DNA of 64,000 bases from Bacteroidales bacterium (GCA_035647615.1 DASRND010000013.1:1-64000); one strand, 5' to 3'. Counted from the first letter of the stretch, positions 1-7,208 are shown. The notes: generated from the sequence alone by a model not told the origin. Translations and numbers: made by a program.

Positions 1-50
1 AACTTTACACTGTTCAAATATTAAAAACAAAATAATAAAAAGATAAAACA

Positions 51-914
51 ATGGACAAAAAAACCCTTTACATCGACATGGATGGCGTGCTGGTTGACTT
101 CCAGAGCGGAATTGATCAGTTATCACTTGAAACACAAAAAGAATTCGAAAACAGACTTGATGAAGTACCAGGGATTTTTGATCTGATGAAACCCATGCCA
201 GGTGCCATCGAAGCTTATGAGCGGTTATGTGAAAAATTCGACACCTACATCCTGAGCACTGCGCCCTGGGAAAACCCATCGGCATGGAGCGACAAACTGC
301 TGTGGGTACAAAAACATCTCGGGAAAGTTGCTTACAAGCGGTTGATCCTGTCGCACCACAAAAACCTGCTCAAAGGCCATTTCATCATTGATGATAACAC
401 CAGACGGGGAGTAGACAAATTTCAGGGCGAGCATATTTGCTTCGCCACCGCTAAGTTCCCCGACTGGAAAACGGTGGTAGATTATCTGGAAACAAAGCTT
501 GAAAAGGAGGAAAAACTCAAAGCAGTACCTGTTGGGCCGGATACGGCAATCCTGTTTTCGATCCTGCATTCCATCAATGGCATCGAAGCGCTGTATCAAA
601 TCTGGCAGCAGGACATCTACCGCGCCAACAGCGTCATTTTTCTGAACGAGGATGTTGACGGCATGAGCCAGGAAGCAATTGAAGAGATGGTGAAAAAGGA
701 TACCGTTTATGTAAAAGGATCGGGCACCAGTTTCGCAAAAAGCGATAGCGGCTATACATTCTTTAATTTCAATTTTCAGGATGTTGAGGATGATTTCTCC
801 TTTGACAATGAAGCAGCCCGAAAAGAATCTGACAAAGCTCATAAAAGAGCTGATAGATGGAGAGAAGAGATTGCAAAAAGAGATGAAGGATATAAAAAGC
901 AGCGTCCGGTATAG
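51..914 (+). CDS. 5'(3')-deoxyribonucleotidase-like HAD protein with C-terminal extension
   Basis: The first 150 residues fit the NT5C family of HAD phosphatases, which dephosphorylate (deoxy)nucleoside monophosphates in the cytosol. HAD motif I is DMDGVLVDF with the catalytic aspartates at D9 and D11. Motif II is the serine in YILSTAPW. Motif III is a lysine followed by the metal-binding pair in FIIDDNTRRG. Family members are usually about 180-200 residues, so this 287-residue protein has an extra C-terminal part (about 160-287) that I do not recognise. That part ends in a charged, probably helical tail. The ATG at 51 follows an AT-rich leader with no Shine-Dalgarno sequence. The HAD call is firm; the exact substrate is inferred. 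Confidence 0.8.
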   Translation: MDKKTLYIDMDGVLVDFQSGIDQLSLETQKEFENRLDEVPGIFDLMKPMPGAIEAYERLCEKFDTYILSTAPWENPSAWSDKLLWVQKHLGKVAYKRLILSHHKNLLKGHFIIDDNTRRGVDKFQGEHICFATAKFPDWKTVVDYLETKLEKEEKLKAVPVGPDTAILFSILHSINGIEALYQIWQQDIYRANSVIFLNEDVDGMSQEAIEEMVKKDTVYVKGSGTSFAKSDSGYTFFNFNFQDVEDDFSFDNEAARKESDKAHKRADRWREEIAKRDEGYKKQRPV

Positions 915-1177: not shown

Positions 1178-1624
1178 ATGGCAGTTCACGCAAAAGACCT
1201 GATCAATATCATTGTTAGTCCTACCTCTGACATCATTACCATCATCATCGACTATGGTAAATTGAAGCAGAAACTACAAAATCCCGAAAGCCATACGTGG
1301 TATTTCAATCAGGGCCTCGAATCTCACCAGGCAAAACTAAGTGACCTAAAAAAGAAATTTGAAAGCTTTCGGAGTGATTTTAACGACTTCGATTTAGACG
1401 AATTAATCAGCAAGTTAAACGAAGTCAAAACCGAAAAAAGCGAGATTCCGAGAAGAATGGGTCTGATTCAACAAATTCATCTGGCATCAGTGCTATCAAG
1501 AATGAAATATCTGGAATCCCTGATAGAGATGAAAAGCAGGATAAGTGAGATGATGCCCATCGATTATTACATCGAAAACGGTGACGCTCTTTTGACAATA
1601 ACCGGCTGGGAAGCTGAGAAATGA
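1178..1624 (+). CDS. Hypothetical protein, helical
   Basis: I do not recognise this 148-residue protein. It has no signal peptide or clear membrane segment. A hydrophobic start (about residues 7-26, rich in I, V and T) is followed by a charged, leucine-spaced stretch (about 55-95) that looks helical or coiled coil, and the C-terminus is acidic. The ATG at 1178 follows an A-rich leader typical of the genes here. It lies between a hairpin element and another small orphan gene, upstream of the DUF2779 nuclease on the same strand. The open frame and codon use look genuine. Confidence 0.6.
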   Translation: MAVHAKDLINIIVSPTSDIITIIIDYGKLKQKLQNPESHTWYFNQGLESHQAKLSDLKKKFESFRSDFNDFDLDELISKLNEVKTEKSEIPRRMGLIQQIHLASVLSRMKYLESLIEMKSRISEMMPIDYYIENGDALLTITGWEAEK

Positions 1625-1648
1625 AAACGAGCAAACCCATAATTTCAG

Positions 1649-1656
1649 TAGCTTTG
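1649..1656 (+). promoter_or_regulatory. TAGCTTTG -7 box
   Basis: A perfect match to the Bacteroidota -7 consensus TAnnTTTG. It sits about 105 nt before the ATG of the small gene at 1761, which implies a long leader. No convincing -33 TTG is spaced correctly. Confidence 0.4.
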
Positions 1657-1760
1657 TGGAAAACATGCGCCATGCAAGCATTTCGATAAAAAGGAAGTGA
1701 TAAAATCAGTGTAGAACCTGTTGGCAATAATTGTAAATCATCAAATAAAACTCCAAAAAA

Positions 1761-2003
1761 ATGCTCAAAACAAAAGAATTCAAACAGATGCTGGACAAAA
1801 CCTCAGCCCTGATTCCCGATCTTTTAGCAGCCTCAACCACGCAACAGGAAGAGGTGGCCGCCTTGGTCGCTTTGCTTACCATTCGGCTGGGCTTGCTCGA
1901 AGACCTCGCCGAAGAAATTACCCATCCCGATTTTGAAGAAAATTTCCGTGTAATGCGGGAGAGCATCTTTGAAGTCGTGCAGCTGATAAATGAGCGGGTT
2001 TGA
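1761..2003 (+). CDS. Hypothetical protein, 80 aa, acidic and helical
   Basis: A small acidic protein of 80 residues without a signal peptide or membrane segment. The middle (about 25-55) is rich in alanine, leucine and glutamate and looks helical. I do not recognise a family. The ATG at 1761 is preceded by an A-rich leader. An overlapping ORF in another frame (1721-1936) is arginine-rich and composition-biased, so this frame was preferred. It ends 86 bp before the DUF2779 nuclease on the same strand, so co-transcription is possible, but nothing in the sequence ties the functions together. Confidence 0.55.
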   Translation: MLKTKEFKQMLDKTSALIPDLLAASTTQQEEVAALVALLTIRLGLLEDLAEEITHPDFEENFRVMRESIFEVVQLINERV

Positions 2004-2089
2004 TATCCGGCACACCGGAGCGCCTGCTAAACCGGGAGATTGTAATTGATAAATGAAAACCTGTGGTATTTTAAGATAAAAAAAACGCT

Positions 2090-4084
2090 ATGAAAAACCC
2101 CCGCTATCTCACCAAGTCCCGTTTTAAGCTGGCGCTGGATTGTGAAACCAAACTTTTTTATACCAACAAAAAGGAATATCCCGACGAGCGCATCGACGAC
2201 GCTTTTCTTGAAGCATTGGCCGAGGGCGGATTCCAGGTTGGCGAACTGGCAAAGATGTATCATCCCGGAGGCATCGAAATCCCTTATGGCTCGTACGATG
2301 ATATGGTAAACGAAACCCTCCGGCTGCTCAACCAGGAGAAAGTGATCATTTACGAAGCCACCATAAAGTTTCAAAACCTGCTCATACGCGTGGATGTGCT
2401 GGTGAAAGATGGAAATACCATCGACCTGATCGAAGTAAAAGCCAAGTCGTTTGAAGGCAATGATTCGTTTGACCTATTAGGTAAAAACGGAGCCTTGGCC
2501 TCAGGATGGAAACCCTACGTATATGATGTTGCGTTTCAGAAGCTCGTGATGACGAAGGCTTTTCCACATTTTAAAATACGTTCGTACTTGTGCCTGGCCA
2601 ATAAGAAAAGCGAGGCTACGGTGGAAGGATTAAATCAAAATTTCCTGTTGGTAAAAAATAATGGACGGACAGGCTGCGTGTGCAAAGCCGGGCTTACAAA
2701 AGCCGATTTGGGTGCGGAAATATTGATCAATGTGGACGTGGATGAAATTCTTGCCAGCATTTATAACCAAAACGATTTCTCGCCAACCCGCGTGCGCTCT
2801 TTTGAAGAATGGGTGTTTTACCTGGCTGATCACTATGCACGGGATGAAAAGATAAAACCAATCATAGCCGGGAAATGTAAGGGCTGCGAATTCAGATGCA
2901 GCGCTGAGGAGGAAAAATCTGGATCAAAGAATGGATTTAAAGAGTGCTGGAAAGAAAGTTTTCGACTTGCCGACAGCGATTTCGATAAACCCGCCATGCT
3001 CGATATTTGGAACTTCCGGCGGAAAGACAAAATGATTGCTGGAGGTAAAATTTTCATGAAAGACGTTACCGAAGACGATCTCAGTGACCGTCCTTATTCC
3101 GGCAATGGAATGTCGCCCAAAGAGCGCCAGTGGCAGCAGATACAAAAGGCTGTGAACAACGATCAGGCGCCTGAAATAGATGCCGCGGGATTAAAAGCTG
3201 AAATGAAAACCTGGAAATATCCGCTTCATTTTATCGACTTCGAAACCACCGCTGTGGCCATTCCCTTCCACAAAGGCATGCGGCCTTACGAGGGTGTCGC
3301 CTTTCAGTATTCGCATCATATAGCCTATGCGGATGGAAGGATAGATCATGCCGGCGAGTACCTGAACACCAAAAAAGGTACGTTCCCGAATTTTGAATTT
3401 GTGCGGCATCTGAAGGCCGAACTTGAGCAGGACGAAGGCACCATCTTCAGATACCACAACCACGAAAACACCTACCTCAACATGATTCACCGGCAACTGT
3501 CCGACGCGGATATCGATGAAGTAAAAGATAAGGTTGAGCTTATGGAGTGGATCAAAACCATCACGCATAGCACCAAATCTTCGGCAGAAAGCTGGACGGG
3601 AGCGCGGGATATGGTGGATTTGTTTCAGATGGTGAAGCGATATTATTACGACCCGCGGATGGGTGGCTCCATCTCACTTAAGGCGGTTCTGCCCGCTGTG
3701 TTGAATTCGAGCAACTATCTAAAAAATAAATATTCACAGCCCATTTATGGTGCCGTTGGCGGGATGAAGAGCCTGAATTTCACTGATCAGATTTGGATAA
3801 AAATGGATGATGACGGCAAGGCAATCAGCCCGTACAAACAATTACCACCCATTTACGAAGCGGTGGATATGGAAGATATTGAGCGTTTAATAAATGGCGA
3901 TCACCTGGCTGATGGTGGCGCTGCCATGACCGCTTATTCCCGCATGCAGTTTACCGAAATGAGCGACCTCGAAAGCCAGGAAGTCCAAAAGGCTTTGCTA
4001 AAATATTGCGAGCTCGACACCCTGGCGATGGTAATGATTTGGGAGTATTGGAAGAAGGAGATCACTGCTTTAGCTCGGAATTAA
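2090..4084 (+). CDS. DUF2779 protein: Cas4-like nuclease fused to DEDD-type exonuclease
   Basis: A two-nuclease fusion of 664 residues. The N-terminal half has a PD-(D/E)XK core: E89, D102 in IRVDVLVKDG, and E115-V-K117 in IDLIEVKAKS. A cysteine cluster at C263, C266, C270 and C286, probably with C18, resembles the iron-sulfur site of Cas4/AddB-type nucleases. The C-terminal half has DEDD exonuclease motifs: FIDFETT with D383 and E385, and a final KYCELDTLAMVMIW carrying the YxxxD of motif III. This arrangement matches proteins annotated DUF2779. DNA processing, repair or defence is inferred; the family role is not settled. Downstream, 83 bp covering motif III is duplicated at 5485-5567, beyond two toxin-antitoxin pairs. 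Confidence 0.8.
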   Translation: MKNPRYLTKSRFKLALDCETKLFYTNKKEYPDERIDDAFLEALAEGGFQVGELAKMYHPGGIEIPYGSYDDMVNETLRLLNQEKVIIYEATIKFQNLLIRVDVLVKDGNTIDLIEVKAKSFEGNDSFDLLGKNGALASGWKPYVYDVAFQKLVMTKAFPHFKIRSYLCLANKKSEATVEGLNQNFLLVKNNGRTGCVCKAGLTKADLGAEILINVDVDEILASIYNQNDFSPTRVRSFEEWVFYLADHYARDEKIKPIIAGKCKGCEFRCSAEEEKSGSKNGFKECWKESFRLADSDFDKPAMLDIWNFRRKDKMIAGGKIFMKDVTEDDLSDRPYSGNGMSPKERQWQQIQKAVNNDQAPEIDAAGLKAEMKTWKYPLHFIDFETTAVAIPFHKGMRPYEGVAFQYSHHIAYADGRIDHAGEYLNTKKGTFPNFEFVRHLKAELEQDEGTIFRYHNHENTYLNMIHRQLSDADIDEVKDKVELMEWIKTITHSTKSSAESWTGARDMVDLFQMVKRYYYDPRMGGSISLKAVLPAVLNSSNYLKNKYSQPIYGAVGGMKSLNFTDQIWIKMDDDGKAISPYKQLPPIYEAVDMEDIERLINGDHLADGGAAMTAYSRMQFTEMSDLESQEVQKALLKYCELDTLAMVMIWEYWKKEITALARN

Positions 4085-4090
4085 TCTGTT

Positions 4091-4184
4091 TCTATTTTTG
4101 CAGGCTAAGCCTGCTTTTCTAGTTATCAGAACAGGCTAAGCTTGTTAAAAAAATGCGGACGAGGTTGTGCCTCGTCCAAACTCC
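4091..4184. repeat. Composite REP-like hairpin element, copy 1
   Basis: It starts 7 bp after the nuclease stop codon. It contains GCAGGCT-A-AGCCTGC (4100-4114), a weaker related palindrome (4130-4146), and a perfect 8-bp stem GGACGAGG/CCTCGTCC with a 5-nt loop (4157-4177). The same two palindromes, in the same relative order, recur inverted at 63656-63716. A degenerate copy of the second palindrome lies at 4788-4808, so the first toxin-antitoxin pair is flanked by these hairpins. Confidence 0.7.
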
Positions 4185-4233
4185 GAAAGCATTAAATTCA
4201 AGCCACTTTAATAAAGGTGGCGTACATTTTCTT

Positions 4234-4241
4234 TATTTTTG
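4234..4241 (+). promoter_or_regulatory. TATTTTTG -7 box of toxin-antitoxin pair 1
   Basis: Matches TAnnTTTG and lies 16 nt before the ATG at 4258. It supports that start over the longer open frame beginning at 4153. Confidence 0.55.
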
Positions 4242-4257
4242 TCAAAAATATTTAGCT

Positions 4258-4491
4258 ATGCAAACAATTCGTTTAAAAGTAAGTGATAAAATCGTCGGTA
4301 ATCTCATGTGGTTTTTGCGTCGGTTCAGTAGCGATGAAATTGAGATACTAAGCGAGAACAACCAATTCCTCTCAGTTCAAGAATATCTGGAAAACGAATT
4401 GTTGGCAATGGAAAGCGGGCAGCCTGATTACATCAATATTGATGAATTGGAAAAGCATCTTGAAAAATCCATTCGAAAGTATGAAGATTAA
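4258..4491 (+). CDS. Putative type II antitoxin (pair 1)
   Basis: A small 77-residue protein. Its N-terminal half begins MQTIRLKVSDKI and looks like a DNA-binding segment; its C-terminal half is acidic and helical, as expected of an antitoxin tail that wraps its toxin. It precedes a RelE/ParE-like toxin with an 11-nt overlap (4481-4491), a classic translational coupling. The frame is open back to 4153, but a -7 box at 4234-4241 and a REP-like hairpin upstream make the ATG at 4258 the likely start. By analogy with other type II systems it should neutralise the toxin and repress its own promoter. The family name is inferred mainly from context. Confidence 0.7.
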   Translation: MQTIRLKVSDKIVGNLMWFLRRFSSDEIEILSENNQFLSVQEYLENELLAMESGQPDYINIDELEKHLEKSIRKYED

Positions 4492-4768
4492 AATCACACC
4501 CATTTTCAGAGATCGGTTGAGTGCGCAGGTTGAATTTATTGCTAAAGATAAACCCACTGCTGCTAGAAACTTCAAAACCGATATTCTTAATTGCATTAAA
4601 GAAATCCCAAAAAGTCCTTATGCATACCGCCGATCCATCTTTTTTAATCGAGCTGATGTAAGAGATATGATTTTTAAAGGATATATCGTGGTTTTTAAAG
4701 TTGATGAAAGTAATCAGATAATTGAGATTTTTGGTTTTTGTAAGTGGCAGGAGAACCCCTCTAAATAA
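4481..4768 (+). CDS. RelE/ParE-family toxin (pair 1)
   Basis: A basic 95-residue protein with the RelE/ParE layout: a beta strand at the start (MKIKITPIFRDRL), two helices (about 10-45), then strands ending in a segment RDMIFKGYIVVFKVD and a final hydrophobic strand with FGFCKW. The family acts as an mRNA interferase (RelE) or gyrase poison (ParE); the sequence alone does not decide between them. The ATG at 4481 lies inside the end of the antitoxin frame. A longer start at 4439 would overlap the antitoxin by 53 nt and is less likely. The pair sits between two GGACGAGG-type hairpins. Confidence 0.75.
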   Translation: MKIKITPIFRDRLSAQVEFIAKDKPTAARNFKTDILNCIKEIPKSPYAYRRSIFFNRADVRDMIFKGYIVVFKVDESNQIIEIFGFCKWQENPSK

Positions 4769-4787
4769 TAAGTTTGAGTAAGAATGA

Positions 4788-4808
4788 GGACGAGGCACAG
4801 CCTCCTCC
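4788..4808. repeat. Degenerate REP-like hairpin downstream of toxin pair 1
   Basis: GGACGAGGC-ACA-GCCTCCTCC is a 9-bp stem with one C/C mismatch. It is related to the perfect stem at 4157-4177, so the two bracket the first toxin-antitoxin pair. Confidence 0.6.
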
Positions 4809-4887
4809 AGTCACCATGATGTTTCTTAACAATCCAGTTACACAAACGCATTTCTCTAACCAACCGGACGGAATTACATATTTTCAG

Positions 4888-4895
4888 TAGTTTTG
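4888..4895 (+). promoter_or_regulatory. TAGTTTTG -7 box of toxin-antitoxin pair 2
   Basis: Matches TAnnTTTG and lies 18 nt before the ATG at 4914. It makes the upstream in-frame ATG at 4893, which overlaps the box, implausible as a start. Confidence 0.55.
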
Positions 4896-4913
4896 TATTT
4901 AAATTTATTCGAG

Positions 4914-5141
4914 ATGACACAAGAAGCAATTAAGTTGGAATTGATTGAGTGGCTGACAAAACTCCAAAGCAACGAAACCATCCATTATTTAAAAATTATC
5001 AAAGATTCGATGAAAGAGGAAAATGATTGGTGGAGCAGCCTGAGCAGCGAACAAATATCCGGGATTGAGCGTGGATTAAAAGATATAGATGAAGGCAGAA
5101 CGATTGCGCATGAAACAGTAAAACAACGTTATGAACTATAG
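4914..5141 (+). CDS. Putative type II antitoxin (pair 2)
   Basis: A 75-residue protein beginning MTQEAIKLELIEWLTKL, with a C-terminal half containing SSEQISGIERGLKDIDEGR. That region resembles the short addiction-module antitoxins paired with ParE-type toxins in Bacteroidota. It overlaps the following toxin gene by 11 nt (5131-5141), exactly as in pair 1. The start was set at 4914 because a -7 box occupies 4888-4895. Neutralisation of the partner and autoregulation are expected from family knowledge and are not shown by the sequence. Confidence 0.75.
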   Translation: MTQEAIKLELIEWLTKLQSNETIHYLKIIKDSMKEENDWWSSLSSEQISGIERGLKDIDEGRTIAHETVKQRYEL

Positions 5142-5430
5142 CTTTCCTGTTATCTGGTCGGAGGAGGCAGTAAGAAATTTGGAAGAAACCCTTGATTATC
5201 TTGTGAACCGATGGACACAGAGGGAGGTAAATAATTTTAAAACAAAACTTTCCCGGCAACTGAATTTAATCTCTCAAAACCCTAAACTATTTCCTGTTTC
5301 AGGCATTCAGCCTCGTTTAAGAAAAGCCGTTTTAAGCAGTCAAACCACCATCTTTTACGAGTTTAAAAACGATTCGGTTTATATCGTTTATCTTTTCAAT
5401 AATGCTAAAAACCCGGATAAAATCAAATAG
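5131..5430 (+). CDS. RelE/ParE-family toxin (pair 2)
   Basis: A 99-residue protein with ParE/RelE features: an N-terminal strand followed by WSEEAVRNLEETLDYL, a helical pair, a central arginine-rich LFPVSGIQPRLRKAVL, and the terminal strands TTIFYEFKNDSVYIVYLFNNAKNP. This order is typical of ParE-like toxins of Bacteroidota. Its ATG lies within the antitoxin frame. It shares little obvious sequence with the toxin of pair 1, so the two pairs look like independent acquisitions and not a tandem duplication. It is followed about 50 bp later by the orphan copy of the DUF2779 3' end. Confidence 0.8.
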   Translation: MNYSFPVIWSEEAVRNLEETLDYLVNRWTQREVNNFKTKLSRQLNLISQNPKLFPVSGIQPRLRKAVLSSQTTIFYEFKNDSVYIVYLFNNAKNPDKIK

Positions 5431-5484
5431 CTTCTTTATCACCTTCTACTAATTTTATCAGAATCAGTCCCTCTAAAAAAGTAC

Positions 5485-5571
5485 GAAGTCCAAAAGGCTT
5501 TGCTAAAATATTGCGAACTCGACACCCTGGCGATGGTAATGATTTGGGAGTATTGGGAGAAGGAAATGTAA
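5485..5571 (+). pseudogene. Duplicated 3' fragment of the DUF2779 nuclease gene
   Basis: Bases 5485-5567 match 3980-4062 at 80 of 83 positions. The fragment reads in frame as the last part of the nuclease, including the DEDD motif III YCELD, but ends WEKEM followed by a stop, where the intact gene continues KKEITALARN. There is no start codon or upstream nuclease sequence, so it is a remnant. The two copies bracket both toxin-antitoxin pairs as direct repeats. The remnant may preserve the ancestral 3' end of the gene before the insertion. Confidence 0.85.
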
Positions 5572-5628
5572 ATTTCTCACCGCTCACCGTTCACCCGCTC
5601 ATCTCTCACCGCTCACCGCTCACTTCCC
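5572..5628. repeat. Quasi-periodic CTCACCG tract
   Basis: A low-complexity run built from imperfect 7-8 nt units (CTCACCG, TTCACCC, CTCATCT). It begins right after the pseudogene stop and overlaps the last codons of the leftward HD gene. Similar but differently worded tracts occur near other gene ends in the window. Confidence 0.6.
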
Positions 5629-6199
5629 CATGCACATAATACATCCCAAACATCCCGATCATGGCATCGAAGCGTCGCAGGTTGTCTTCGCCGTATTTGG
5701 AAAGGTTTTCATAAATCTTGTTGAGCTTCTTGGGCTTTGTCAGGTTGCTGCCCGACTTCGAGAAAAACTTATCGGCATAGCACAGTATTTTTTCTTCCAC
5801 CGTAACGGGCATCATGTCGCGGTGGGGCAGCGGCAGATTGAGACGTATGATCTCTTCGCGCGGGATGCCCGTGCCGGTGTGGCGTTCGGCAAAAAGCGCA
5901 ACTTCTTCGGGCAATCCTTCTCGTTCCAGAATTTCCCGCCCCAGATAGCCGTGGCAGATGTAGGGATGATCGCCAAAGCAGCCGATGTCGGGCGCCGATG
6001 TTTGGATGATGCCAATGTCGTGCAGCATTGCCGCCAGCGCCAGAAGTTCGGTGTCGGGCGCGAGGTGTTTATTTTTAGCTGCGATCTTCAGCGCCAGATC
6101 ACGCACAGCCGTGGAGTGTGCAATCAGAATATTATAAACCAACGTGTCGGGCGGAGCATATTTTTGAAGGATCTTTATGGGATCGAAATCTTGATACAT
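5606..6199 (-). CDS. HD-domain phosphohydrolase
   Basis: A cytosolic metal-dependent hydrolase of 197 residues. The HD signature is MLHDIGII with H60-D61. Further candidate metal ligands are H28, H83 (ICHGYLG) and H107 (ERHTGTG). This spacing fits the HDIG-type nucleotide or phosphate-ester hydrolases. The start was placed at the ATG at 6199 (MYQDFDP), since the longer frame adds only ten residues that read like leader. The last codons lie in a quasi-periodic CTCACCG tract, so the extreme C-terminus may be variable. The substrate cannot be told from the sequence. Confidence 0.8.
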   Translation of the reverse strand: MYQDFDPIKILQKYAPPDTLVYNILIAHSTAVRDLALKIAAKNKHLAPDTELLALAAMLHDIGIIQTSAPDIGCFGDHPYICHGYLGREILEREGLPEEVALFAERHTGTGIPREEIIRLNLPLPHRDMMPVTVEEKILCYADKFFSKSGSNLTKPKKLNKIYENLSKYGEDNLRRFDAMIGMFGMYYVHGEVSGER

Positions 6200-6215
6200 T
6201 TTTAAAAAATTGTTT

Positions 6216-7208
6216 TTAAAACAAGTCAAAAATCAGTCGCAGGTAAACGTAAGCATCGGGGGCAAAATCGCTGTAGCCTTCCAGGTTCACATTTTTCCAG
6301 GCCACCTGCACACCTGGGTCAATCGACACCGACTCGTTGAGGATAAACTTCACGCCGCCATTGAGGAAAATGCCAAAGCCGATGCCGCCCTGGTAAATGT
6401 CGTACTCGTAGGCGTTGCCGCCCGGGCCTGGGATGAAGCCGCTACTACCGTAGCGGTTGATGAGCGAGTATTGCTGTTTGCCAATCTCAATCCGGCTTTC
6501 GAGCACGCGTGTGCTGTTCATCTGCAAACCCGTTTCGATGAAAATACTGGTGTATCCGCCTACCCGGTAAAACTTGCTGATGCCCACATCGATGGTTACC
6601 TGCTCCTGCTTGCCGCGGATGTAACCGGTGCGCAGAGCCGGCTCGCTGAAATAAGTTACCGAATCGATCACCATCTGAAAAACTCCGCTGGCGACCAGTT
6701 TTACATAGTTCGACTGCAGGAAAATTCCCGTGGTGTTATTAAAATTATACTTCACGTAAAAGCCCGGCATGATGGTGGCGTTGTATTTCATGTTGAGCGG
6801 ATAATAAATCCACCAGGCTTTTTCCCCATCGGAAATGCCATACTCCCGCTTCCACTCTTCCAGTGACGAAGACCATTCCGGCGGGATATTATCATCGGTG
6901 GTTCTGTAAATATTATTGCTGTTGAGTTCCTGAAAAATCTCCTCGTACCAATATTTGTTGCTCAGCACATACTCGATGTTGTTTTCGTTGAAACGCTCAC
7001 CGCTAAAGTATTGTGCCGAATAATTATTAGAAAAATACAAGCCCATGTTGATGGCAAAGCGCCAGCCCGTCAGGTCGTATTCCGACCAGTTGCGTTCCTC
7101 GGGGGTAAATCGCGGCATGCGCGCCTGGGCATTGATGTTGGCTGTAGCCAAAAAGGTGATCAACACGAGCATGCCTGCAACGATTATGGCGGGTTTAAGA
7201 TTTTTCAT
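6216..7208 (-). CDS. Putative outer-membrane beta-barrel protein
   Basis: A 330-residue exported protein. A lysine-containing N-terminus and hydrophobic core end at about NAQ/A around residue 28, a good signal peptide. The rest is rich in aromatic and alternating residues with repeated amphipathic strands (for example FYVKYNFNNTTGIFLQSNYV), and it ends YVYLRLIFDLF, with the terminal phenylalanine common in outer-membrane barrels. The start at 7208 was chosen because it begins the signal peptide; upstream codons read as leader. I recognise no specific family. It lies just upstream of the HD gene (16 bp), so the two may be co-transcribed. Confidence 0.65.
   Translation of the reverse strand: MKNLKPAIIVAGMLVLITFLATANINAQARMPRFTPEERNWSEYDLTGWRFAINMGLYFSNNYSAQYFSGERFNENNIEYVLSNKYWYEEIFQELNSNNIYRTTDDNIPPEWSSSLEEWKREYGISDGEKAWWIYYPLNMKYNATIMPGFYVKYNFNNTTGIFLQSNYVKLVASGVFQMVIDSVTYFSEPALRTGYIRGKQEQVTIDVGISKFYRVGGYTSIFIETGLQMNSTRVLESRIEIGKQQYSLINRYGSSGFIPGPGGNAYEYDIYQGGIGFGIFLNGGVKFILNESVSIDPGVQVAWKNVNLEGYSDFAPDAYVYLRLIFDLF

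Follow-up and report, generated by a model that had tools for sequence, protein, structure and literature searches.

The window analyzed here is a 64-kb stretch of a 38-contig draft genome of 3.75 Mb (designated as G000). On its plus strand, at positions 2090–4084, it carries an intact gene coding for a DUF2779 nuclease of 664 aa (PF11074, E = 6.5e-24). The N-terminal part of the protein is Cas4/RecB-like and contains a four-Cys cluster, and its sequence suggests an Fe-S/Cas4-like identity. The C-terminal part is a DEDD-type exonuclease domain with a YCELD motif; the exonuclease reading follows PMC3985635, and the YCxLD end motif is conserved in the homologues compared.

A direct repeat of the nuclease gene end

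The end of this gene is present twice. An 83-bp segment of the intact gene (copy 1, positions 3980–4062, plus strand), which ends 22 bp before the end of the gene, recurs in the same orientation at 5485–5567 (copy 2) with three mismatches (96.4% identity). The original prediction described this repeat as carrying YCELD in the frame of the DUF2779 gene, and repeat and BLAST comparisons (E = 3e-32) confirmed the description and placed the pair at the top of the near-exact direct repeats in the window. The edges of the repeat are sharp, with similarity ending abruptly at either side, and no third copy was found when the whole assembly was searched with positions 3960–5600.

Copy 2, a fragment of 27 codons from the gene end, is untranslated, and the sequence immediately downstream of it is aaatttctcaccgctc. 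It reads WEKEM-stop, and its frame holds no ORF of at least 40 aa. Given that copy 2 is untranslated and is preceded by DNA unrelated to the gene, WEKEM-stop does not function as the end of a gene. The original prediction had thus read the last codons correctly but had wrongly taken them for a gene end; its proposal of a regenerated or captured 3' end is not supported, on the same grounds. Where copy 1 has K (WEYWKKE), motif-sharing homologues have K, N, Q, G or R, except for a few that are aligned differently, and E, which copy 2 has at this position, was not seen among those compared. The missing E fits a copy 2 that may be drifting.

Contents of the block between the copies

The block between the copies begins (4063–4182, plus strand) with the last 22 bp of the gene, which read ITALARN-stop, and a multi-hairpin dispersed palindromic repeat. 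These are followed by two TA gene pairs on the plus strand, in each of which a short ORF overlaps the start of a ParE-type toxin gene by 11 bp. In pair 1, the putative antitoxin (77 aa, 4258–4491) has no Pfam or NCBIfam match, and its homologues sit ahead of toxin-1 homologues in other genomes. Toxin 1 (95 aa, 4481–4768) belongs to the ParE/RelE superfamily (PF05016, E = 9.5e-9, 36.2 bits) and has homologues with 48–56% identity in 6 of the 58 other relatives searched. A lone hairpin, an inverted repeat at 4788–4808 that resembles the last hairpin of the dispersed repeat, separates pair 1 from pair 2, whose putative antitoxin (75 aa, 4914–5141) has no Pfam match. Toxin 2 (99 aa, 5131–5430) is of the same superfamily (PF05016, E = 2.4e-6, 28.5 bits) and has homologues with up to 73% identity in the same family. 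Both toxins score above the curated PF05016 cut-off of 23 bits, and the two pairs are predicted to be ordinary type II TA operons of the ParE/RelE superfamily. The ORFs, the PF05016 matches and the inverted repeats agree with the earlier view that two TA pairs and hairpins fill the interval.

The G+C content of the insert is 36%, versus 47% upstream. ORF and Pfam searches showed no integrase, recombinase or transposase gene between the copies, as the original prediction had held for an integrase; the two TA pairs are the only genes there, and none of the ORFs is transposase-sized. A site-specific integrative element was rejected because an integrase or recombinase gene is absent between the copies. 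An IS or a composite transposon was rejected because the ends of the insert show no significant inverted repeats (p 0.09 to 0.96) and it holds no transposase-sized ORF. No RNA family was found in 1500–6300. The suggestion that the island is a defense unit was dropped, since PADLOC gave no match for seven proteins.

The hairpins just 3' of the DUF2779 gene (about 4082–4182) are one member of a palindromic repeat family that is scattered through the genome in tens of copies; the best match elsewhere has 76% identity over 100 bp. Members of the family are intergenic, contain several G+C-rich hairpins and end in GGACGAGG....CCTCGTCC, and in some of them the first hairpin encloses other short repeats. 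The similarity is clear from 4082 on, and the possibility that this palindrome set the edge of the 83-bp repeat was rejected because the fit at 4063–4081 was not significant (p 0.06 to 0.17).

Bracketed TA loci in the same genome

Three other TA loci of G000, which a ParE-family search identified, also lie between direct repeats. On contig C36, a YefM/YoeB-like pair is located between 137-bp copies (96% identity) of the 3'-terminal part of a DUF3575 gene, and the repeat terminates exactly at the stop codon of this gene. On C21, a pair related to pair 2 is bracketed by 58-bp repeats (88%) in a leader sequence, and on C2, a ParE pair is bracketed, weakly, by 45-bp repeats (82%) located where a short ORF begins. 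Each of these repeats, like that of the window, has exactly two copies in the genome, and their lengths vary from locus to locus (45, 58, 83 and 137 bp). The fifth TA site, on C27, has no bracketing repeat.

Brackets were thus present at four of the five TA sites, the window included, versus 3 of 286 control probes; with the window left out, the comparison was 3/4 versus 3/286 probes over 194 kb (p 2e-5). Of the three control brackets, two consist of low-complexity repeats flanking a protease gene; a repeat of 76% identity between neighboring paralogous kinase-like genes was not scored as a bracket. Because most TA pairs found in G000 lie between local copies, the copies look like scars of selfish gene pairs that insert with no known transposase.

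The nuclease itself does not account for the duplication. A second gene end was found at none of the 45 DUF2779 loci of other genomes, indicating that the duplication is not a property of the nuclease; the duplicated end goes with the TA pairs, and DUF2779 is ruled out as a component of the unit. The tie between island and nuclease gene that had been proposed is therefore abandoned. A search related to the one suggested with the original prediction, for gene-end repeats around cargo at other loci, was positive for TA cargo and negative for DUF2779.

TA loci in other genomes

In the first test of generality, which covered relatives of TA pairs 1 and 2 alone, 5 of 25 loci were bracketed, the window included, versus 7 of 197 probes; this excess is weak, and most of the relatives elsewhere are unbracketed. 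So that the choice of loci would not depend on inspection, ParE-family loci were then collected by searching 22 genomes with Pfam, and direct repeats within 5 kb were scored as a bracket if they had a length of 45 bp or more and an identity of 75% or more. Nine of these 33 loci were bracketed, compared with none of 30 control mid-points (Fisher p 0.002) and 1 of 169 control probes (3e-7, a value to be read with the non-independence of probes within one region in mind). The brackets at three loci of other genomes (L194, L202 and L211) are not taken as target duplications because they look like dispersed non-coding repeats instead.

Two genomes show gene fragments next to TA genes, and the gene identities given here are our reading of their sequences. 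In G435, a pair related to toxin 1 lies between a copy of the 3' end of a putative sugar-nucleotide dehydrogenase gene (66 residues; 198 bp, 78%) and the intact gene. Next to the dehydrogenase 3'-end copy, this region (L190/L191, G435:C34, 18.7–23.3 kb) holds two TA pairs plus an unpaired antitoxin, and an 85-bp palindromic repeat occurs in it about seven times. In G443 (C12, about 76.7 to 95.5 kb; L188 and L189), the roughly 17 kb after a wzm-like gene hold TA and other small accessory genes, among which about a dozen partial copies of the 5' region of a wzt-like (ABC ATPase) gene are interspersed. Several of these copies have a one-base frameshift in common, which suggests that they arose by copying from each other.

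At another locus (L138, G444:C49), a TA pair related to pair 2 is found between 223-bp copies (5449–5670 and 6548–6770, 95% identity). This repeat matched no gene, and its copies were counted at that locus.

The locus in related genomes

The DUF2779 gene of the window is absent from the same-genus genomes examined. In one of them, G002, the HD gene region is 88% identical to the window from position 5623 onward; DUF2779 and the TA pairs are missing at the matching region, and there is no collinearity to the left of 5623. The edge of collinearity coincides with a low-complexity CTCACCGCTCACCG repeat at 5572–5623, a tract of which G002 has several instances close to its own matching region. In G000, the orthologue of the gene next to HD in G002 is on a different contig, and the locus is rearranged in G002.

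In a second related genome, G001, the upstream genes (window 45–911 and 1752–1988) are conserved (L252/L253, G001:C80, 20.1–24.4 kb), and an HsdR-like gene occupies the position of DUF2779. There, the halves of the window gene at 51–914 form two genes of their own, and a truncated antitoxin-1-like gene lies between them. Upstream of DUF2779, the window has a decayed promoter and the start of a second antitoxin-1-like gene (1638–1707, plus strand; 1669–1707 is 85% identical to 4255–4293), a remnant that was found with E = 2e-4 in a whole-genome search. The truncated gene of G001 and this remnant imply that antitoxin-1-type modules have been present at three different positions of the locus. For the other TA sites, 18 chance-sampled contigs of G001 and G002 contained no orthologue that could serve as an empty site.

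Origin of the repeat

Taken together, we consider it probable that TA operons insert with long target duplications of variable length and that the block in the window came to lie at the 3' end of DUF2779 in this manner. An insertion at the gene end had been part of the original prediction, and this part is supported by the same layout at other TA loci, whereas the link to the nuclease is not. A block of about 1.4 kb with two type II TA operons would have entered the 3' end of the gene, and about 83 bp of the target would have been duplicated in the event. The DUF2779 gene would have stayed whole, while copy 2 would be the leftover end beside the old downstream DNA, now drifting. Neither a fixed-footprint transposase nor a site-specific integrase fits the variable repeat lengths, the differing targets and the absence of clear terminal inverted repeats; the mechanism that we consider most likely is the joining of TA-bearing DNA at widely staggered breaks, followed by fill-in. 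Post-segregational killing by the toxin would favor cells that keep the insert, and gene ends may be tolerated targets because the gene survives the insertion. Since no empty site was found among the genomes examined, we infer insertion, direction included, as the origin of the repeat, and likewise that no dedicated transposase would be involved.

Homology-facilitated illegitimate recombination would produce a similar arrangement. DNA of a related strain, in which the TA pairs were already located 3' of DUF2779, would cross over inside the gene, its other end would join by chance 83 bp before the end of the recipient gene, and the recipient's own end (WEKEM) would stay as copy 2. The 96% identity, the differing last codons and the absent integrase are all accounted for in this way. 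The differences between copies, pooled over the window and C36 loci, number eight; all are transitions and four are silent. The silent share speaks for such recombination, and the pattern is compatible with the drift of one copy but also with allelic divergence. However, the scenario requires a donor with TA pairs already beside the same gene and must recur with different genes at the three other bracketed TA loci of G000, and we regard it as unlikely.

A tandem duplication running from the gene end through the TA block, with most of the second unit then deleted and an 83-bp stub left, seems quite improbable to us. Unrelated sequence does cut copy 2 on both sides, and the upstream antitoxin remnant shows that related modules occurred twice at the locus. 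On the other hand, neither copy 2 nor the C36 copy is followed by a remnant of a second TA unit, and at every bracketed locus the deletion would have to end near the edge of the repeat. Chance, an assembly artifact or an unrelated gene-end fragment brought in by rearrangement would suit a 38-contig draft and a locus at a breakpoint relative to G002 beside low-complexity repeats, but is very improbable, as brackets recur at TA loci far above the controls, and copies that differ by three bases are not one sequence doubled by assembly.

Insertion of TA operons with long target duplication, if this is what the repeats record, bears on how small TA operons change their chromosomal site without a mobile element. 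If long target duplications are left behind, the sites, order and age of insertions would be readable from sequence, empty sites would offer a test of TA mobility, and it would be plausible that addictive gene pairs share a common route. A broader and more doubtful proposal, which we put forward tentatively, is that the TA operons of Bacteroidota are mobile units, moved by an undescribed process, mostly to gene ends, with 45 to about 140 bp duplicated and sometimes repeatedly at one site, as in G443; if true, TA history could be read from gene-end scars.

Comparison with known systems

The arrangement shares features with several known systems. In super-integrons, TA cassettes likewise present TA operons with their own promoter between repeats; here, in contrast, the repeat is the end of a protein-coding gene and not an attC-like site, and no integrase is seen. 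Integrative elements whose attachment sites are gene 3' ends resemble the locus in that their cargo, too, lies between direct repeats of such an end and leaves the gene whole, but here there is no integrase gene, the repeat length differs by locus, and other loci are at 5' ends or leaders.

A closer parallel is found in Microcystis aeruginosa, in which a ParE/ParD-like TA module downstream of an orthocaspase gene is fenced by 152-bp direct repeats (PMC7935541). There, as in the window, a RelE/ParE-type pair lies just 3' of another gene and between long direct repeats. In Microcystis, however, the two repeats are identical, they begin 14 bp beyond the stop codon of the gene, and an inverted repeat lies within them, whereas the repeat in the window is part of the gene; the text of that paper mentions neither transposition nor mobility. 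The literature searched, with subscription papers mostly outside its scope, contained no general description of TA operons with long target duplications or flanking repeats, which is weak evidence.

Restriction-modification genes have been described to insert with long target duplication, the duplicated segments being on the order of 100 bp (Nobusato 2000 and Furuta 2010, as cited in PMC3874152, PMC3031569 and PMC1643837). As far as these citing accounts convey, both cases involve an addictive unit at chromosomal sites, with long, variable target repeats and no linked transposase. They differ in that the cargo here consists of type II TA operons, and in that the original description rested on empty-site strains, while ours rests on the repeats.
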